DNA from: Roseburia sp.
Lineage (GTDB): Bacteria > Bacillota > Clostridia > Lachnospirales > Lachnospiraceae
Direction: 5' to 3'
Assembly: GCA_017626625.1 (NCBI GenBank)
Contig: JAGAIK010000291.1
Location: 1 to 10,233 of the forward strand
Length of the DNA: 10,233 nt
Each line of letters opens with the position of its first letter. Positions within the stretch are counted from its first letter, which is position 1. The translations under genes were made by a program, and so were the position numbers. Of this stretch, positions 1 to 10,233 are shown in pieces. Below the pieces are notes generated by a model, which saw only the letters and a program-made list of their open reading frames with translations, searched no databases and was not told where the DNA came from.

Positions 1-729
1 ACCAATGTGAATACAATATTTCTTGGGATAGGCGGTGTGTTGGTTGTTATTTTTTTCCTCATGGGATTTTGTGCGGACAGTGTGGATATCAAGCAGGACT
101 TCCGCCTGGAAAATATCCTTCGGATGTTCTTAAAACTATCGCTGGCAGAATTTTTTGTAATAAATTCCATGACGATTGTGCAGAAATTATTTGCCTTGTC
201 TACGGGTGTTATCGGAAAAATCAGTGGAAGCGGCACCTCTTTCCGATATACAGTACCGACAGAAGTTACAGAAATTTTAAATTTGCCATTAACAAATGAT
301 ATCAGCGGACTGGGTGGGGTTTTTATAATGGCATTATTGTTTATTGTTACGATTATTTTTATGATGGTGACCGCAGGCTGCGGAATGCTGATGCTATTTG
401 AGGCATTTCAGCGTTTTTTGAAAATATTAATGCTGGTGCCCTATGGGACACTGGCAAACAGTACCATTGCAGGAAATCATATGCTGTCAAGGTCGGCAGA
501 ATCCTTTTGGAAATATGCACTTGGAACAATTTTGGAAGCAGTCACAATGTATATGGCAATGGTTTTAAGTGCCGTGGTAACTTCCAGCGGTGTTGTTAAT
601 CTTACTAATGGACAGACCGGAGGATTTTACATTTTAGGATGGATTTTACAGAGCAGCTTTATTTGTATGCTGACGCTTGGCACAGTAAAAGGTTCCGGGA
701 TGATTACACAAAAAGCACTGGGACTTTAA
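1..729 (+). CDS. VirB6/TrbL-like conjugal transfer membrane protein (5' partial)
   Basis: Polytopic membrane protein, probably the VirB6/TrbL-type channel component of the T4SS. The frame is open from the first base and a GTG at 7 is the first possible start seen. With only about 240 residues, and at most one short hydrophobic stretch before the first loop, the true N-terminus probably lies upstream of the window. Counting from the GTG, hydrophobic segments lie at about residues 3-22, 37-70 (long, possibly broken), 104-132, 136-155, 170-192 and 206-228. The loop at about 70-103 is polar and carries no recognisable catalytic motif. Assignment rests on the multi-span pattern and on position directly before PrgI and VirB4 genes, the usual order in clostridial elements. 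The stop is followed by a 20-nt gap to the PrgI gene, which fits a shared operon. An unrelated polytopic protein cannot be excluded. Confidence 0.7.
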   Translation, partial: TNVNTIFLGIGGVLVVIFFLMGFCADSVDIKQDFRLENILRMFLKLSLAEFFVINSMTIVQKLFALSTGVIGKISGSGTSFRYTVPTEVTEILNLPLTNDISGLGGVFIMALLFIVTIIFMMVTAGCGMLMLFEAFQRFLKILMLVPYGTLANSTIAGNHMLSRSAESFWKYALGTILEAVTMYMAMVLSAVVTSSGVVNLTNGQTGGFYILGWILQSSFICMLTLGTVKGSGMITQKALGL

Positions 730-749: not shown

Positions 750-1220
750 ATGTTGTCTATCAATATTAATCAGGATGTAGAACAATATCAGGAGCCGGTG
801 GCGGCCGGAATGAATGCAAAGCAGACCATAGCGGCAATTCTGTCGATAGCGGCAGCAGCGCTTGTGACATGTATTGCTTATTTTGGTTTTGGAATACCGC
901 TCAAGGCAGCTATCTACATAGCAATACCGGTTTGTGTTCCCATCATGCTGCCGGCATTAGGAAAACAGTATGGCTTAACCGTAATGGAACGTTTTCGGGG
1001 AAGCAATAAGAGAAAACAGGTGGTGGCATTTGCCACCACACGTACCCTTCGGATAGAAGATATTTCACAGAAGGCAGATGATAAAAATGCAAAAAAGAAA
1101 AGGGGAATGATTTTTGGAGTTGTCAGAGGAAGGAAAAAGGAGCGGAAGATAAATGAAAAAACGGAGACAGAACGGACAGGAGAAGAGGGTTCGGAGGAGA
1201 GACAGGTTTCACAGGATTAA
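750..1220 (+). CDS. prgI: PrgI family protein (VirB3-like T4SS inner-membrane component)
   Basis: A 156-residue protein matching the PrgI family, the Gram-positive counterpart of VirB3, which works beside VirB4 at the membrane. The family-typical start (ININQDVEQYQEP) is followed by two membrane spans at about residues 25-46 and 50-70. A short basic segment (MERFRGSNKRKQ) and a charged cytoplasmic tail complete it. The start at 750 is chosen because GGAGGAG lies at 736-742 and the family N-terminus begins exactly there. An in-frame upstream TTG at 639 would lie deep inside the VirB6-like gene and has no family support. The last 68 nt overlap the next gene in another frame, and this tail (about residues 135-156) is charged and low in complexity. 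The tail may therefore be conserved less for its own function than for the overlapping start region. Confidence 0.88.
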   Translation: MLSININQDVEQYQEPVAAGMNAKQTIAAILSIAAAALVTCIAYFGFGIPLKAAIYIAIPVCVPIMLPALGKQYGLTVMERFRGSNKRKQVVAFATTRTLRIEDISQKADDKNAKKKRGMIFGVVRGRKKERKINEKTETERTGEEGSEERQVSQD

Positions 1221-2301
1221 AAACAAGCAGGAACAGGTATATAAGTCTCCTGCATTTTTTAATGGGAATTTGGGAGTCAGCAGGATTTCAGAAAGCGGGA
1301 TTTTTGAAGTAGATCATTGTTTTACCAAAGCATATTGTGTCACAGAACTCCAGGATAAAGAATGGGAACAGTTGATTGGGGCATGGAGAGAATCCGGGAC
1401 GGAGTGCGGTATTTTGCAGGGAAAATATTTGAATGAGACATATCTTCTGTTACGGGAAGGATATTGCGATATATCGGAAGCAATAGAGAAGTTTGCAGAG
1501 ATGGAGCGGAAGTTAAAGATTACAGGTCTTTCGGCAGAGCAGAGGATAGAGAGGTATGGTAATTATCTATCGAAGGTTTTAGGAGGAGCGTATCCGGCAG
1601 ATTCCTACCTTTCAGAAACACCTGCATGGAAGGAAGCAGCTTCCATGAACAAGTTAAGAACGTCAGAAAAGGAGATTGCAGCGGAATCAGAATATTTTGC
1701 GGTAATGGCAATTCGCAGATTTCCTGGAAAAATAAAAAGGGGAATGCTTCAAAAACTGGCTGATAAGGAATATTGTGCAGCGTCGTATTTGTCTGCCTTA
1801 AGAGTTGCGGATAAAAGAATCCGTGAATCCGTTGAAGAAGAGTATCTTGGGGTGGATGGGGTGCTGCCGAGAATGAAACGAAAAGCCCCATTGCTATACG
1901 ATATTTTAAAAAATGAGGACGGAAACAGGGAGGACACCGGAAGCTTTATGAGCGCCAGTGCTTATTTTCTGTTACATGCAGAAACACTTGAAGAATTATA
2001 TGAAAATATGTCTGATTTTTCCCTGACAGCGGCAGAAAGCGGAATACGGACAGAAAAAATTCCATTGGCAGAATTAAAAAGACCGGGAGAGCTAAAAGAA
2101 ACATTGGCTATGTTTGGGCTTATGGGAAGCAGTCAAAAACGATATGGGAATTTTCTTACGGCAGAAGACACCTTAAAGTTTCTGGTGTATGGAAATTCCA
2201 AAGAAGAGGTCAAAGGACAGGCATATGATGTAGAGGAAATGCGGGCACTGTTTTTTGGTGAAAGCGGAAGGAGGGAAGAAAAAGGAAATGAACAAAAGTA
2301 A
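1153..2301 (+). CDS. VirB4 N-terminal-domain-like protein lacking the ATPase domain
   Basis: A 382-residue soluble-looking protein with no Walker A or B motif and no membrane span. By eye it parallels the N-terminal half of the VirB4 encoded next to it. Its ESGIFEV...K.Y segment (about residues 47-60) matches PNGIFQV...KSYY in VirB4. LSAEQRIERYGNYL (about 124-137) matches MNADERFRVLHAFY. The region around YFLLHAETLEEL (about 271-282) matches the VirB4 stretch just before its ATPase domain. The protein ends about where the ATPase would begin, so it looks like a stand-alone VirB4 N-domain. I infer a structural or regulatory role with VirB4 or PrgI. The start at 1153 has AAGGAG at 1137-1142, and no later ATG occurs before 1501. 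It overlaps prgI by 68 nt and virB4 by 14 nt. The N-terminal 25 residues are strongly basic. Confidence 0.6.
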   Translation: MKKRRQNGQEKRVRRRDRFHRIKNKQEQVYKSPAFFNGNLGVSRISESGIFEVDHCFTKAYCVTELQDKEWEQLIGAWRESGTECGILQGKYLNETYLLLREGYCDISEAIEKFAEMERKLKITGLSAEQRIERYGNYLSKVLGGAYPADSYLSETPAWKEAASMNKLRTSEKEIAAESEYFAVMAIRRFPGKIKRGMLQKLADKEYCAASYLSALRVADKRIRESVEEEYLGVDGVLPRMKRKAPLLYDILKNEDGNREDTGSFMSASAYFLLHAETLEELYENMSDFSLTAAESGIRTEKIPLAELKRPGELKETLAMFGLMGSSQKRYGNFLTAEDTLKFLVYGNSKEEVKGQAYDVEEMRALFFGESGRREEKGNEQK

Positions 2302-4720
2302 AATGCCCAAAAAGCAGTCCGGTATGTCAAAACGTAAGATTTTTATGTCACTGAAAAATCCGGATAAAGTGAGATACAGTAATGCGAAAAGTACACAGGA
2401 TAAAATTGAAATATGGAAAGTTGCGCCTAACGGAATTTTTCAGGTAGGGAAAGAAAAATGGTCAAAAAGTTATTACCTGATGGATGTGAATTACACAACT
2501 CAGATATATGATGAGCAGCTTGCATTTTTTTATGATTGGTGCAAGACCATCAATTCCTTTGATATTTCAGTGAAGATTACAGTATTTAATGAGAACAGAA
2601 ATATGGAGGAAATCCGTGAAAAAATTCTGTATCGTTATAAAAATGATGAATATGACTGGCTGCGAGAGGCTTACAACGACATTATAGAAAGTAAAATTGT
2701 GGAGGGGCGCAAAGGTATCCGGCAGGAAAAATTTCTTACGATTACAGTGGAGAGAAAGGACTATGAGGCGGCAAGAGCCTACCTGTCCTCACTGGAAGGA
2801 AGTTTTATCAGTAACTTTGCGGCGCTTTCTTCCGTATTGCTGCCAATGAATGCCGATGAGAGATTTCGGGTACTGCATGCTTTCTATCATATGGGACATG
2901 AAGCGGAATGTGATTTCCAAATGGAAAGGGAAATGATGAAAGTACGCAGTTTTAAAGATGAACTGGCACCTGCAGTTATGGATTTTGACAGAGCGATAGA
3001 CAGATTTTATATGGAAGATAAGGTGTGTTCCATGCTCTATCTGGACCCTGCATCTTATCCGACGTCACTGTCAGATACATTTTTTAAAGAGCTTACAGGA
3101 CTGCCTATGCGTTCGGTATTTTCTATTGACTATGAACCGATTCCCCAGGATGTGGCATTAAAAACTCTGGAAGATAAGTTGATGGGGGTAGAAAATACAA
3201 TCGCAAAGCAGCAGGAGAAGAGAAATAAAAGAGGAGCATTTTCCAGTGATATTTCTTACAAAGTGAGGAGGGAAAAGAAGGAACTGGAGCGTATGCTGGA
3301 TGAATTGCGGGATAATGACCAGAAGATGTTGTGGGTTGGTGTTACTGCAGGAATTATTGCAGATAATGATGAAAAAATGGACGAAGCCCTTACTGCCGTA
3401 AATCAGGTAGTAGAGAAAGCAACCTGTAATATTATTCCTTATTATATGCGTCAAAGGGAGGCTCTTGCCACGGTGCTTCCTGTGGGAGGAAGATATGTAG
3501 ATATGATGAGGGCACTATTTACATCTTCGGCTGCGGCATTTGTACCATTTAATGTGGTGGAAATGCAGATGATGAATAAGCCTTTATATTATGGAATTAA
3601 TCAGGTTTCCAAGGAACCAATTTGGGCAAACAGGAAATTACTTTTAAATGGGAATGGATTTGTGTTTGGAATACCGGGCGGAGGAAAGAGTTTTACCGGA
3701 TGTAAGATGGAAGCAGGTGGAGTGTTCTTAAATACAGAGGATGACATCATTTTTGTAGACCCCACGATGGAATATTTCGATGTGGCGGAGGCCTACGGCG
3801 GAGCTATTATTAATCTTGCCACTTATGCGGAGGATTATCTAAATCCATTGGAGGTAGATTTGACGATTTTAGATGTTGACGATAAAGCCGGACAGGTCAG
3901 GGAGAAATGCGGTTTTATGCTTGGTATCTGTGAACAGGCAATGAATGGCGGTATTAAGCCGGAGTACAAATCTATCATAGACCGTTCTGTGCGGAGGATG
4001 TACAAAAAGATAGCAATGATGCCGGTGGAAGAAAGGCAGCAGCCGATTATGGGTGATTTTATCCGGATACTTGAAGAACAGGAAGAGCAGGAGGCAAGGA
4101 AGATAAAGCTGGTCCTTGAAATTTTTGTGGACGGTTCTTTAAATATCTTTAATCACCAGACCAATATTGATGTTGATAACAGAGTACTTGTCTATGGAAT
4201 GCGGGATTTGTCGGAAGATTTATCGGGAATGGCAATGCTTGTCATGTTAGAGAACATCAAGCAGAGGATTATTAAAAATGCGAAGAAGGGACGTGCAACC
4301 TGGTTGTATGTGGATGAACTTCATGTACTTCTTGGAAAACCATTTTCCAGGGATTATCTGATTGCATTGTGGAAACAGGTTAGAAAACTGGGAGGATTAT
4401 GTACAGGAATTACCCAGAATGTGGTTGAGGTTTTAAAGGACCCGATGACCTCTACATTAATTTCTAACAGTGAGTATACGGTTCTGTTAAAGCAGGCTGC
4501 ACCGGATGCAGCGGCGCTTGGAAAAGCATTAGGTGACATTAGTGAGGCACAGATTAAATATACCACCAATGCAGAACCCGGTACCGGACTGATACGTTTT
4601 GGAAATACAATTATTCCATTTAATAATAAGATAGCAAAAGATAATCCGGTTTATGATGTTTACAATACAAACCTGCATGAAAAGGCAGCAAAAAAGAAAG
4701 CTGAAGTAGGGATTCTATGA
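2288..4720 (+). CDS. virB4: VirB4-like T4SS ATPase
   Basis: An 810-residue VirB4/TraE-type ATPase that would power substrate movement and assembly of the conjugation channel at the inner face of the membrane. The N-terminal domain (about residues 30-440) has the family pattern, with PNGIFQV near the start. The C-terminal RecA-like domain has Walker A GIPGGGKS at about 461-468. Walker B is WLYVDELH at about 672-679, with the catalytic-position Glu at 677. A downstream GLCTGITQNV motif also fits the family. The length is normal for Gram-positive VirB4. The ATG at 2288 is chosen because AGGAGGG at 2269-2275 serves it, although the 12-nt spacing is somewhat long. An in-frame TTG at 2255 would sit before that site and is less likely. 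The start overlaps the preceding gene by 14 nt. The stop overlaps the next start as ATGA, indicating translational coupling on both sides. Confidence 0.93.
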   Translation: MNKSKMPKKQSGMSKRKIFMSLKNPDKVRYSNAKSTQDKIEIWKVAPNGIFQVGKEKWSKSYYLMDVNYTTQIYDEQLAFFYDWCKTINSFDISVKITVFNENRNMEEIREKILYRYKNDEYDWLREAYNDIIESKIVEGRKGIRQEKFLTITVERKDYEAARAYLSSLEGSFISNFAALSSVLLPMNADERFRVLHAFYHMGHEAECDFQMEREMMKVRSFKDELAPAVMDFDRAIDRFYMEDKVCSMLYLDPASYPTSLSDTFFKELTGLPMRSVFSIDYEPIPQDVALKTLEDKLMGVENTIAKQQEKRNKRGAFSSDISYKVRREKKELERMLDELRDNDQKMLWVGVTAGIIADNDEKMDEALTAVNQVVEKATCNIIPYYMRQREALATVLPVGGRYVDMMRALFTSSAAAFVPFNVVEMQMMNKPLYYGINQVSKEPIWANRKLLLNGNGFVFGIPGGGKSFTGCKMEAGGVFLNTEDDIIFVDPTMEYFDVAEAYGGAIINLATYAEDYLNPLEVDLTILDVDDKAGQVREKCGFMLGICEQAMNGGIKPEYKSIIDRSVRRMYKKIAMMPVEERQQPIMGDFIRILEEQEEQEARKIKLVLEIFVDGSLNIFNHQTNIDVDNRVLVYGMRDLSEDLSGMAMLVMLENIKQRIIKNAKKGRATWLYVDELHVLLGKPFSRDYLIALWKQVRKLGGLCTGITQNVVEVLKDPMTSTLISNSEYTVLLKQAAPDAAALGKALGDISEAQIKYTTNAEPGTGLIRFGNTIIPFNNKIAKDNPVYDVYNTNLHEKAAKKKAEVGIL

Positions 4721-7044
4721 GACTTGAAGATTGTAGAAAAAAAGAAAAACTCCATGCGGTAAAACCTAAATTTCAAGTGACGGGCGTTTCTTTTGGAGGG
4801 TACGGCAGCCAATATGCCGGGAAACAGAAAAGAGACGCCCTCTTTGGAAGAAATGCAAAGTTTCAAAGCGAAGTCAGCGAGGGTTCTGATTCCAGACAGG
4901 CATTATATGAAAATATGGATATCGTGTACCGGGGAAGGATGGCAGGCACAGGATATTATCCCAGGGAAGCCAAAAGCACACGGAGTTATGGTGAAAATTT
5001 AGGAGTGAAAGCAAGGAAAAAAACTGGTGTTATATCAGAAGTTCATTTTCCTAAAGAAGGCTCGGTGCAGGGGATTGTCAGACAGAATTTAAAACCACAG
5101 GAAGAAAGTCCGGACAGAAATGAGGAATATGAAGAAGCAAACAGTGCTATGAGCAATAGCGAACGGGCTTATTTTGCTGTCATTGCATTGGCAGAGGCAC
5201 GGAAAAGAAGTAAAAGCAGCAAGGTTCAGGATAAAAAAACGAAAGCGGAAGATTTTACTGCTAAAAAGAAAAGTGGAGACATGCCGGAGAAAAAAGTTGC
5301 TGCTGAAAAAAAGGAGCGATTATTAGACCAGCAAAAACGGGAAGGTTTCCAGAAAGAGCGTGTGCTAGACCAGCAGAAAAGGGAAAGGTTTCAGAAGGAG
5401 CGTGTGTTAGACCAGCAGAAGCGGCAGGGTTTCCAGAAAGAGCGTGTGCTAGACCAGCAGAAAGGGGAAAGATTTCAGAAAGAGCGCACCTTAGATAAAT
5501 GGAAACAGGAAGGGACAGCCGGGAGATATGCAGGGGGGAATTTATCACAGGATGAATTAACCAGGCTATGTAATGTACGTCCGAACCAGATGGGAGATGT
5601 TTCAGGTGTCAGAAGCAGAACAGATATGGCAGAAAATTATACCGCAGAAAATGAAGAACCGGAGCCATTGGTCTGTTCTGAGAAAGAACGCGAAAAGATA
5701 AGGCAGAAAAAAGCGGATAAAACAGAAAACAGCAAAGAGAAAAAGGATGAAGAACGTTCAAAAAAGCACAAAATTGATAAGGTAAAGTGGAAACTGCTAA
5801 AAAGGTATGTCATTCGTGAAATGATACATGAAGAGGGAAAGCAGGATCCGAATGCTCATTTCCGATTGGCGGGGCAAATCATCGGTCATGATATGGCAAG
5901 GCTGGCTGTCTTTATTGGAAAGCTTATTTTAAAACTGCTATTGCAGCTTTTTATAGCGTTGTTGCCGATTATCCTGATAGCCGCTATTATCATTATTTCC
6001 ATTATGGCAGGGTATTCGTACATTATCAATCCGGTATCTTATTATGACAATATTTATGATATGGAGGAAGAAATAGCTGAAAATCCCTTATATCTGAAAA
6101 ATGTCGTACAGGAAAAATGCCGGGATTTTGCAGGGGAAATGCAGACACTGGAAGATAATTGGAGACATGACGTCAGTTATCCTTATGAGAACTATCCGGA
6201 TGCGGATATTGTAACCATTGTGTATCTGGCGCAATTATGTACGGCAGATAATTATAAAGACAGGACAACAAATAGAGAGGACGGATATCCGCCATATCTT
6301 CTGGTAGATACAGAGGAGGAAAATACTCTGCTTGATTCGGTATTTTCACAATTTAATTATATCACGTCAACATTTACGATTATCAGCATTCAGGGAGCAA
6401 ACAATGTATCACATCCGGTCGCAGGTTTTGATACCAAAATCTATTGCCTGACACTGCAGAATTGGAAATCGGCACATGAGAACGAGTTATCAGAGGATGC
6501 AAAAAAACTGTTGGAAGAACTGGAAGAAAAAATCGGGGAAACCGGGGGAACTTCCGGGGATTTTGTCGGCAGTGTGGATGCAGTGCCGGTGGAGGATTTG
6601 GAGATACCGGATGGGGTTGATGAGAATCTTATTTATATGGCGGGCTTTATCAAAGCAGAAGCCGGAAACCAGCCGGCACTCGGAAAGACAGCGGTAGCAT
6701 ATGTTATTTTGAATCGTGCAGGAGGACCATCCGGGAATATTAAGGGCGTACTCTTAGCACCGTATCAGTTTTCCTGTTACATACCATACCACACCGTAGA
6801 GCAATATCTGACAGCTTATGCTTCCATGACGCAGGAGCAAAGAGAGGCGGATTCCTGTTACCAGGCTGCCGCAGGAGCCTACTATGGAACGTCTGCAAAT
6901 CCCATTGGAGACATGAAATATTACTGCAATCCGAAGTATTGCAGCGCAGGAGAAACAAAGCAGTGGGAAAAAATCCGGGCGAAAAACAGTTCGGACGAAA
7001 TTATTATTATCGGAGATCATGTATTCTGCAAAAATTGCTGGTAG
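4717..7044 (+). CDS. Membrane-anchored SleB-type cell-wall hydrolase (VirB1-like; CD1108 family type)
   Basis: A 775-residue protein likely to open peptidoglycan for the transfer channel. Residues 1-398 are very polar and basic, predicted cytoplasmic, and contain four 14-residue repeats (about 200-255) likely to form helix or coiled coil. One long hydrophobic segment lies at about 399-434 with no signal peptide, so the C-terminal part should be outside the cell. Residues 435-620 are an unassigned extracellular region. Residues 636-775 match the SleB/CwlJ hydrolase domain (Hydrolase_2): E648 in KAEAGNQP is the likely catalytic acid, followed by GKTAVAYVILNR, APYQFSCY and a final IIGDHVF. The layout resembles proteins annotated as CD1108 family mobile element proteins, a name I recall and could not check. 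The start forms a 4-nt ATGA overlap with virB4. The protein ends with Cys-rich CKNCW, and further Cys lie in the hydrolase domain, so disulfides are possible. Confidence 0.82.
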   Translation: MRLEDCRKKEKLHAVKPKFQVTGVSFGGYGSQYAGKQKRDALFGRNAKFQSEVSEGSDSRQALYENMDIVYRGRMAGTGYYPREAKSTRSYGENLGVKARKKTGVISEVHFPKEGSVQGIVRQNLKPQEESPDRNEEYEEANSAMSNSERAYFAVIALAEARKRSKSSKVQDKKTKAEDFTAKKKSGDMPEKKVAAEKKERLLDQQKREGFQKERVLDQQKRERFQKERVLDQQKRQGFQKERVLDQQKGERFQKERTLDKWKQEGTAGRYAGGNLSQDELTRLCNVRPNQMGDVSGVRSRTDMAENYTAENEEPEPLVCSEKEREKIRQKKADKTENSKEKKDEERSKKHKIDKVKWKLLKRYVIREMIHEEGKQDPNAHFRLAGQIIGHDMARLAVFIGKLILKLLLQLFIALLPIILIAAIIIISIMAGYSYIINPVSYYDNIYDMEEEIAENPLYLKNVVQEKCRDFAGEMQTLEDNWRHDVSYPYENYPDADIVTIVYLAQLCTADNYKDRTTNREDGYPPYLLVDTEEENTLLDSVFSQFNYITSTFTIISIQGANNVSHPVAGFDTKIYCLTLQNWKSAHENELSEDAKKLLEELEEKIGETGGTSGDFVGSVDAVPVEDLEIPDGVDENLIYMAGFIKAEAGNQPALGKTAVAYVILNRAGGPSGNIKGVLLAPYQFSCYIPYHTVEQYLTAYASMTQEQREADSCYQAAAGAYYGTSANPIGDMKYYCNPKYCSAGETKQWEKIRAKNSSDEIIIIGDHVFCKNCW
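5314..5514 (+). repeat. In-frame 42-bp tandem repeats in the hydrolase gene
   Basis: Four full 42-bp units at 5314-5355, 5356-5397, 5398-5439 and 5440-5481, plus a degenerate partial unit at 5482-5514. Each encodes a 14-residue segment of the type ERVLDQQKRERFQK. Units alternate between a G-F-Q-K and an R-F-Q-K ending. The first 36 bases from 5344 and from 5428 are identical, so a two-unit (84-bp) block was probably duplicated. The repeat number keeps the reading frame. Confidence 0.9.
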
Positions 7045-8863: not shown

Positions 8864-9928
8864 ATGAGTGAATTAATGAGTTTTACACCTACGGAAGAAC
8901 AATTCGGGGTGTTTTGGAAATATATTGAAAATCCGACAGTAACGGATATTGATTACAATGGAAAATCATTGTGGATTACGGATTTTGAAAAAGGGAGATA
9001 CAGGGTGGAGGAAGAAATAACAGAAAGTTTCTTATCTGCCTTTACACATAATATTGCAAACAGCGTTAATAAACAATTTAATAACGCTAACAAAGTATTG
9101 GAGGCCGATACAAGGGAGTTGCGCATTAGCATTCTTCATGAATCCGTAACCTCTGGTGGTATTTCGATATGTATTAGAAAATCCCCACCATTAATCCGTA
9201 ATACTATTCAGGGAATGATAAAAAGTGGCTACTGTCCAGAAAAAATACTGCATTTGCTGATAAACTGTGTTCTGGCAAAAATGAATTTTGTTTTTGGCGG
9301 AGAACCGGGAGCCGGGAAAACGGAATGTGCAAAGTTTTTTATGCAGTTTATCCCGGCGGAAGAACGAGTTATCACGGTGGAAGATTCCTATGAAATTCAT
9401 TACGCAGACATTAATCCAGAAGCGGATGCAGTGGAGCTTCGTGTCTCCCGGGGATTTGATTATACAGATGCCATCAAGGCGTGTTTAAGACAAGACATGA
9501 AATGGCTGATGTTGTCGGAAGCCCGTTCCGTGGAAGTAACTTCTCTATTAGAACAGTGGAGCACTGGAGTAAAGGGTTTTACTACTATTCATTTGGATGA
9601 TTTGAGGAAGTTGCCAGATCGTATTCAAAACATGATGGATAATGTCAATGATGCTGACCGCATGGAAAAACGGATTTATCGTTATGTGAATGTGGGAATC
9701 TTAATAAGAAAAATAGGGAATCCGGATGGAAGTATCAGACGTTATATCGACCAGCTCTGTTTTTATACAAGGGAGGAGCATAAAAACAAAATTTACATGA
9801 TTATGAAAGATGGGGAAATCATTTCCGAAGAATTGCCAAAAGACATCCAGCAGATGTTTAAATATGCTGGGATTGATAATCAGTATCATTGTAAAAATAT
9901 GAAATCTTATATTGAGGAAGGAAAGTAA
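8864..9928 (+). CDS. CpaF/TadA-like secretion ATPase (T2SS/T4P/T4SS family)
   Basis: A 354-residue hexameric-type ATPase expected to power assembly of a Tad-like pilus at the cytoplasmic membrane. Walker A is GEPGAGKT at residues 146-153. The Asp box is VEDSYE (172-177), the Walker B glutamate is E219 in LMLSEARS, and the His box is TTIHL (240-244). The N-terminal part contains the ELRISI...SGGISICIRK pattern just before the core. It is shorter than typical CpaF (often over 400 residues), lacking the usual N-terminal extension. The normal GE of the Walker B region is SE here, and the TTxHA His box ends in Leu, so it is divergent but should be active. ATG 8864 is the first start after an in-frame stop at 8855. 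Its best ribosome-binding site, AAGGAG at 8843-8848, is 15 nt away, suggesting weak translation. It abuts the next gene. Confidence 0.9.
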   Translation: MSELMSFTPTEEQFGVFWKYIENPTVTDIDYNGKSLWITDFEKGRYRVEEEITESFLSAFTHNIANSVNKQFNNANKVLEADTRELRISILHESVTSGGISICIRKSPPLIRNTIQGMIKSGYCPEKILHLLINCVLAKMNFVFGGEPGAGKTECAKFFMQFIPAEERVITVEDSYEIHYADINPEADAVELRVSRGFDYTDAIKACLRQDMKWLMLSEARSVEVTSLLEQWSTGVKGFTTIHLDDLRKLPDRIQNMMDNVNDADRMEKRIYRYVNVGILIRKIGNPDGSIRRYIDQLCFYTREEHKNKIYMIMKDGEIISEELPKDIQQMFKYAGIDNQYHCKNMKSYIEEGK

Positions 9929-10233
9929 ATGAAAGAAACCAGAACAGGAAAATGGAGAAAGGTAAAGCTGTTAAATCCCAAAAATCTGGAAAAAGAAGTG
10001 CATATTTATGGATATAACTGGTCTGTGAAATCGCATGTGTTACTGATGTTGTGCTCTTTGATTGGGATAGCGGCAATCGGTATTCTGTTTCAGTTAAAGC
10101 CAGTATTTTTAACAATGACGGTAATTGCCATGTTTCTTGTGCTTCCGGTGCTGGTATTAGACGTATTTGTAAAAATGTTTGAACAAAAGCGTTTTTCGGA
10201 TACGGCGACATATATGGAACAGATGTTATATTC
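9929..10233 (+). CDS. TadB-like (T2SS F domain) membrane protein, 3' partial
   Basis: The start of a gene that runs off the window, with 101 complete codons seen. ATG 9929 follows the CpaF-like stop without a gap and has AGGAAGG at 9916-9922. The N-terminal 30 residues are basic (TRTGKWRKVKLLNPKNLEKE). Two hydrophobic segments follow at about residues 38-53 and 56-77. Then comes a charged segment ending KRFSDTATYMEQMLY, which is typical of the point where the TadB cytoplasmic F domain begins. TadB-type proteins form the inner-membrane platform that partners the CpaF ATPase, so position and sequence agree. A TadC-like gene would be expected downstream, outside the window. Confidence 0.75.
   Translation, partial: MKETRTGKWRKVKLLNPKNLEKEVHIYGYNWSVKSHVLLMLCSLIGIAAIGILFQLKPVFLTMTVIAMFLVLPVLVLDVFVKMFEQKRFSDTATYMEQMLY

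Follow-up and report, generated by a model that had tools for sequence, protein, structure and literature searches.

The 382-residue protein encoded between prgI and virB4 in a T4SS operon of Roseburia sp., referred to here as X, is a homologue of the N-terminal domain of VirB4 that lacks the motor. The operon lies in the window, which is the whole 10,233-nt stretch of DNA analyzed and represents contig C94 of a source genome that is 81% complete and comprises 723 contigs. It is partial, with genes for a TrbL-like protein, PrgI, X, VirB4, and a SleB-type hydrolase, and its features are as follows.

1..729, forward strand: open reading frame of a presumably VirB6/TrbL-like multi-transmembrane protein, its 5' end beyond the window
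750..1220, forward strand: prgI, VirB3-like (Pfam PF12666, E 1.7e-9)
1153..2301, forward strand: X, motor-less VirB4 N-domain protein of 382 aa (profile, HMM, alignment, and Foldseek evidence)
1153..1236, forward strand: basic N-terminal leader of X, residues 1-28, with 13 K/R and 3 D/E
1192..1572, forward strand: X residues 14-140, similar to the first half of the VirB4 N-domain (VirB4 14-201; hhalign E 4e-10)
1624..2079, forward strand: X residues 158-309, similar to the second half of the VirB4 N-domain (VirB4 about 221-391; hhalign E 6.4e-8)
2227..2259, forward strand: C-terminal DVEEMRALFFG of X, aligned by MAFFT with VirB4 NVVEMQMMNKPLYYG (about 422-436), immediately ahead of the motor; a less certain match, lying beyond the hhalign match and in a low-confidence part of the X model
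2288..4720, forward strand: virB4 of the CD1110 family, complete (NCBIfam NF045971, 762.5 bits), with Walker A at residue 461
4717..7044, forward strand: membrane protein with a SleB-type cell wall hydrolase domain (Pfam PF07486, E 1.9e-11)

The name of the first product is our assumption from its position and hydrophobicity, and this frame had no match in Pfam. The SleB-type hydrolase may have a VirB1-like role. A VirB11/CpaF-like ATPase followed by the start of a TadB-like protein was also observed 3' of the T4SS genes (window 8864-10231); the ATPase matched VirB11 of NCBIfam with an E of 1.1e-25, under the cut-off of that family, and T2SSE of Pfam with an E of 1.2e-16. Gram-positive T4SSs are said, in the relevant passages of one review (PMC12857230), to be universally without VirB11.

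The X gene starts with ATG, preceded by an AAGGAG box 10 nt 5' of it. A P-loop motor was not found in X, as [AG]xxxxGK[ST] is absent from all seven X proteins known, in agreement with the claim of the earlier note that X has no nucleotide-binding motifs. The leader is basic throughout the seven proteins (11-16 K/R vs 3-4 D/E). Searches of family libraries up to an E of 1 gave no Pfam family and three sub-threshold NCBIfam matches, namely MbfA (E 0.003, 17 bits vs a cut-off of 450), the CD1110 VirB4 family NF045971 (E 0.035, 12.4 bits vs a cut-off of 325, which does not make X a member), and a kinase (E 0.039), so that these libraries leave the identity of X undecided.

The homology to the VirB4 N-domain, which had been proposed from landmarks in the sequence, was borne out by profile-profile comparison. 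Using hhalign, seven X rows matched 41 VirB4 rows across VirB4 14-391 with a probability of 98.5 and an E of 1.9e-15, where the VirB4 profile, used for both X and Y (the second family described below), contains the VirB4s of the X loci and two of those of the Y loci; with six X rows and seven VirB4 rows, the probability was 96.8 and the E was 2.6e-10. None of 100 column shuffles scored above 29.0, and reversing the profile gave 14.2, both far below the actual score of 127.6. Taken alone, either half of the VirB4 N-domain matched X (E 4e-10 and 6.4e-8), whereas the motor half, as a control, gave an E of 0.34 and a score of 16.2. Together, the shuffled, reversed, and motor-half controls rule out chance similarity. 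The HMM of X also picked up the N-domains of many other VirB4s. For the remotest X proteins, single-sequence hhalign was weak (E 0.19 for P0017 and 5e-4 for P0015), and the membership of P0017, of genome G083, is based on the X HMM (E 2e-6) and gene position. As to the landmarks themselves, GIFEV at X 49-53 does correspond to GIFQV at VirB4 49-53, and the proposed L.A..R motif holds in part, LSAEQR in X being aligned with MNADER, in which the L is replaced by M in this VirB4.

In the MAFFT alignment, X and VirB4 are colinear as far as the N-domain extends, and X ends immediately ahead of the motor. X is without the VirB4 stretch of about 99-140, which holds two predicted helices according to a VirB4 AlphaFold model that, with a pLDDT of 44.9, is a rough guide to secondary structure only, and a helical hairpin is shorter in X than in VirB4. 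An interface could involve this missing stretch and the shortened hairpin. For X itself, the AlphaFold model was of moderate quality, with a pTM of 0.73 and a pLDDT of 69 (pLDDT 48-54 for the remaining four models). A Foldseek search with this model gave 20 PDB matches at E≤0.001, of which the first 14 were chains of the R388 T4SS (E 8.9e-10 to 7.1e-8, TMq 0.46-0.52, rmsd 6-9 Å), four of them titled TrwK/VirB4 and 10 belonging to larger complexes and assigned to VirB4 by chain length (457-808), and those after them were oxidoreductases at 4e-4 or weaker. At this model quality, X therefore has the same fold as solved VirB4. By sequence, the PDB search with X had a best E of 0.21, to an unrelated entry, and that with A2 returned nothing up to 0.01.

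We then determined the distribution of X. Seven distinct X sequences were found in at least three genera, with the frame open in all of them, and the gene lies between prgI and virB4 at every one of the seven loci; the X proteins of loci L012 and L013 are identical. Within the genus, X was present in 5 of 62 genomes, and a CD1110-type VirB4 was present in 25 of 62 (E≤1e-60); outside it, X was found in G252 and G689, with equal scores, and in G083, adjoining its VirB4. A single-sequence search of 299 family genomes gave three matches (the window, a stand-alone protein in G252, and a match within a VirB4 in G282) and missed G083, which was in the sample, so that the X counts are lower bounds. 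With the X profile, nine of 392 order genomes had matches, which were stand-alone in three (the window, G252, and G689), confined to ORFs of 789-834 aa in five, and in an ORF of 1136 aa in G658 that is SMC-like by reading. Among 371 class genomes, 24 had matches, stand-alone only in the window; 22 had a match in ORFs of 516-852 aa (the sequences of three of these, G940, G807, and G1048, were not retrieved), G781 had a weak match only in a 93-aa ORF, and a second match in G799 was a 173-aa VirB4 fragment. Neither the viral contigs scanned nor plasmids and phages, searched by tblastn with X up to an E of 1, contained X relatives. The X element of G317 (L094 and L095) also encodes a MobA/VirD2-type relaxase, a NikA/MobC-like protein, VirD4, and a ParA-like ATPase, and hence looks conjugative. 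A large adhesin-like protein, recognized by reading of its sequence, was observed in the same element.

The 45 VirB4 rows of a tree of the motor include seven with X and 26 with prgI within 250 nt, and the remainder include two with a longer gap holding other cargo and 10 without a PrgI match. X was not detected for 38 of the 45, two of which have Y, indicating that X is not generally needed. Longer gaps between prgI and virB4 were considered as possible X loci and rejected by reading of the ORFs, without a family search: L063 and L066 hold a toxin-antitoxin-like pair on the opposite strand, and L073 holds an anti-restriction-like protein and L076 and L077 cytosine-methylase-like ones. L076, with its methylase-like ORF, is also among the rows without a PrgI match.

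On motor columns alone, the seven VirB4s that are partners of X formed one clade among the 45 rows (100/100). The X rows also formed one clade (100/99), and their branching order is that of the N-domains of their VirB4s, from which the motor tree departs at one node (L010 with L011, 92/73). The N-domain tree, which was built without L034, L037, and L038, has no firm place for X among the VirB4s. The proposal that X arose as a duplicated VirB4 that lost its motor is sustained as far as X being a motor-less N-domain relative; duplication of the adjacent VirB4 in particular is plausible only, as the tree cannot place X among the VirB4s, and the mixed VirB4 assembly and the bridge to PrgI that the earlier note proposed are conjectural.

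X diverges much faster than its partner. The identity to the window X was 95, 58, 35, 33, 19, and 18% in its relatives, and for VirB4 of the first five of the same relatives it was 98, 89, 79, 75, and 60%. By the Nei-Gojobori method, the dN/dS of X was 0.32 for the window and L008, the sole unsaturated pair, and 0.11 for the window and L009, where synonymous sites are saturated, compared with 0.022 and 0.015, respectively, for VirB4. This high divergence, and a dN/dS of 0.32 against 0.022, would be in line with X being a functionless, decaying remnant of a duplicated virB4, but we consider this very improbable, because the frame is open at all seven loci in at least three genera, the dN/dS is below 1, which also disfavors a pseudogene, and Y is placed likewise. 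Between the window and L008 (1153-4720), the synonymous divergence of X (0.074) was far under that of VirB4 (0.41), a pattern that suggests mosaicism by recombination between these near relatives.

Y, the second motor-less N-domain family, lies directly 5' of virB4 of another clade at seven of seven loci (L140-L143 and L147-L149; the G299/G103 pair is 99% identical). For five of the 10 rows that had no PrgI match (L026, L034, L037, L038, and L087), we compared the ORFs 5' of virB4 with the VirB4 N-domain, and two rows matched, L037 with an E of 4.5e-9 and L038 with an E of 6.8e-6, through ORFs of 333-335 aa directly 5' of virB4. Seven more stretches of DNA revealed Y in four (G299, G308, G342, and G325, of which G299 and G308 hold the L037 and L038 loci) and not in the other three (two of G316 and one of G336). 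A profile of four Y sequences matched VirB4 25-418 with an E of 7.1e-20, in both halves of the N-domain and not in the motor, and with a score of 155 against a maximum of 26.8 in 50 shuffles. By tblastn, some Y proteins also matched the VirB4 N-domains of Y loci. A search for Y in 338 family genomes gave matches in nine, stand-alone and directly 5' of virB4 in three (G197, G663, and G103) and within ORFs of 775-803 aa in five; the match in G162 (454 aa) was rejected because hhalign did not identify it as an N-domain, in spite of 57 matching residues. Walker A is kept in the VirB4 of all seven Y loci. PrgI was undetected beside Y in L140 and L141, the two Y loci with upstream sequence. In L141, a 418-aa ORF 5' of Y (5153-3900, reverse strand) has the look of a VirB11/CpaF-type ATPase, with GRGGSGKT, and it had no tblastn match to the window CpaF at 1e-3.

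It is conceivable, although we are inclined to doubt it, that X and Y descend from a single ancient family, which most VirB4 lineages have lost or which moved between elements, instead of from two separate truncations. The AU test did not reject X and Y as one clade (p 0.47), and hhalign aligned X with Y with a probability of 92.7 and an E of 4.4e-7. Against this, Y joined its own partner VirB4s in a quick N-domain tree (SH-aLRT 94), with X apart from it, and the partner VirB4s belong to different clades of the motor tree. These trees of X and Y, both built without the X row of L060, are limited by long branches, as the tool also warned.

As for the role of X, the R388 system serves as a comparison. 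According to PMC9259494 and PMC12857230, the VirB4 dimer of R388 is formed wholly by N-domains, VirB3 binds the central copy only and VirB8 the outer copy only, and what the outer copy does is described as unclear. The dimer-making domain of VirB4-outside (TrwK) is thus the domain that X has, although VirB4-outside and VirB4-central are copies of one full-length protein and X is a separate, motor-less gene product. As an N-domain alone, encoded directly 5' of virB4, X would fit the outer seat. It may be that X is a structural VirB4-type subunit of a mixed assembly, where the VirB4-outside seat is its most likely position, a reading to which we give a little less than an even chance. Coupled translation would link the synthesis of X to that of VirB4; X would bind the N-domain of the motor-bearing VirB4 via the surface by which VirB4s pair in R388 and would replace VirB4-outside, fixing the ring to the membrane, with ATP hydrolysis performed by the central VirB4s only.

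A structural subunit is supported by the N-domain homology and fold, the complete partner VirB4, the position at seven of seven loci, the single partner clade, the shared branching order, the dN/dS below 1, and the existence of Y. In the window, the X ORF shares 68 nt with prgI, whose stop is at 1220, and 14 nt with virB4, whose ATG is at 2288, and the latter overlap suggests matched production; it is also present in L008, L010, and L011 but, as a point against a structural subunit, missing in L009, L013, and L060. Also against the outer seat, VirB8, the R388 partner of VirB4-outside, was absent from the Pfam matches of 10 window and 10 G317 proteins. The divergence of X (35 and 33%, compared with 79 and 75% for VirB4 in the same two relatives) is odd for a core seat, and the missing VirB4 stretch, the shortened hairpin, the lack of an X match for 38 of the 45 VirB4 rows, the moderate model of X, and the lack of PrgI beside Y in L140 and L141 count against a structural subunit as well.

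The fast evolution of X, the loss of N-domain parts, and the gene order prgI-X-virB4 could alternatively reflect an assembly or regulatory factor that binds PrgI or the VirB4 N-domain transiently, for example, by holding PrgI until VirB4 comes or by capping VirB4 against premature rings. We regard this as rather unlikely, since the overlap with virB4 in the window suggests matched production and Y is placed likewise at virB4, yet PrgI was not found beside it in L140 and L141. X might also have been redirected to another partner, such as the downstream CpaF/VirB11-like ATPase with its Tad-like module. A CpaF is encoded 3' of virB4 in four of the five X loci that are sufficiently long (the window, G317, G252, and G338), and none was matched, nor TadBC, by tblastn (E 1e-4) in about 16 kb 3' of 16 related VirB4 loci without X. 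Such a redirection nevertheless seems improbable, as G083 has X and no CpaF within 9.8 kb up to the contig end, and X and CpaF may merely mark one clade. In the Y loci, the window CpaF had no match in the 0.4-5.3 kb covered 3' of virB4.

If X is a structural subunit, two VirB4 lineages of Lachnospiraceae conjugative elements might each use a mixed assembly of a motor-bearing VirB4 and a dedicated motor-less protein, X or Y, with a purely structural second seat. We hold this broader view to be doubtful, but were it true, outer VirB4 copies in other T4SSs might do without ATPase, and evolution would have taken away the outer-seat ATPase more than once. With X beside one VirB4 lineage and Y beside another, there is a natural route to the question of why T4SSs keep VirB4 copies whose motor is possibly dispensable; and because a complete VirB4 and a motor-less whole N-domain occur in one element, the two roles are separated genetically and the question becomes testable.

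Several known systems resemble X in part. X is homologous to the N-domain of the CD1110-family VirB4 (NF045971), of which the neighboring gene is a full member, but that family has a motor and X is far under its cut-off. In Rickettsia, a VirB4 duplicate, VirB4b, is thought to be unable to act as an ATPase, with a gate or stabilizing role suggested in the part of PMC2653234 that concerns it; as described there, VirB4b has full VirB4 size and an altered NTP cleft and lies away from the vir genes, whereas X is motor-less and adjoins virB4. In Sulfolobales, according to the pertinent text of PMC11868833, the function of the VirB4 N-domain is spread over two proteins, CedB and CedD, for which a hexamer of dimers is proposed; each of these has its own ATPase domain with a different part of the N-domain, unlike X. 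A whole N-domain protein beside a complete VirB4 was not found in our literature search, whose coverage was partial, so that absence from the literature is not proven.

The nearest relative in kind is TrsD, of the pGO1 subclass of plasmids and also reported in Patescibacteria, which is remotely related to the N-terminal part of VirB4 and, in the portion of PMC12102498 dealing with it, has no assigned function. The earlier note was aware of no described function for a protein of this type in Gram-positive T4SS, and TrsD, though described, likewise has none assigned there. Like X, which follows the VirB3-like prgI, TrsD is small and motor-less, has VirB4 N-domain homology, and is encoded directly 5' of virB4, and this shared position is what would favor X being the TrsD-like half of a split VirB4. 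We compared four TrsD/TrsE loci (L088, L089, L090, and L092; TrsD of 193-227 aa, labeled by annotation in two and by position and alignment in two). TrsD matched VirB4 only at 27-201 (E 3.8e-5, or 1.7e-6 vs the first half; probability 70.8-89.9 with the large alignment, and no match, probability 0.7, with the small one), and TrsE matched 218-777 and not the first half (E 0.3). TrsD thus has the first half of the N-domain only and its partner is without it, whereas X matches VirB4 14-391, both halves, and its VirB4 is complete with both; X and TrsD aligned with an hhalign probability of 0.3, using small alignments of seven and four rows, which does not show similarity. This tiling test refutes X as a member of TrsD and makes a split VirB4 a very improbable account of X. 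Accordingly, a motor-less VirB4 N-domain protein is already in print as a kind, from which X and Y differ as additional whole N-domains. TrsD and TrsE together are one VirB4 split into two pieces without overlap, and the test thereby gives a simple reading of this pair, a single VirB4 in two pieces.
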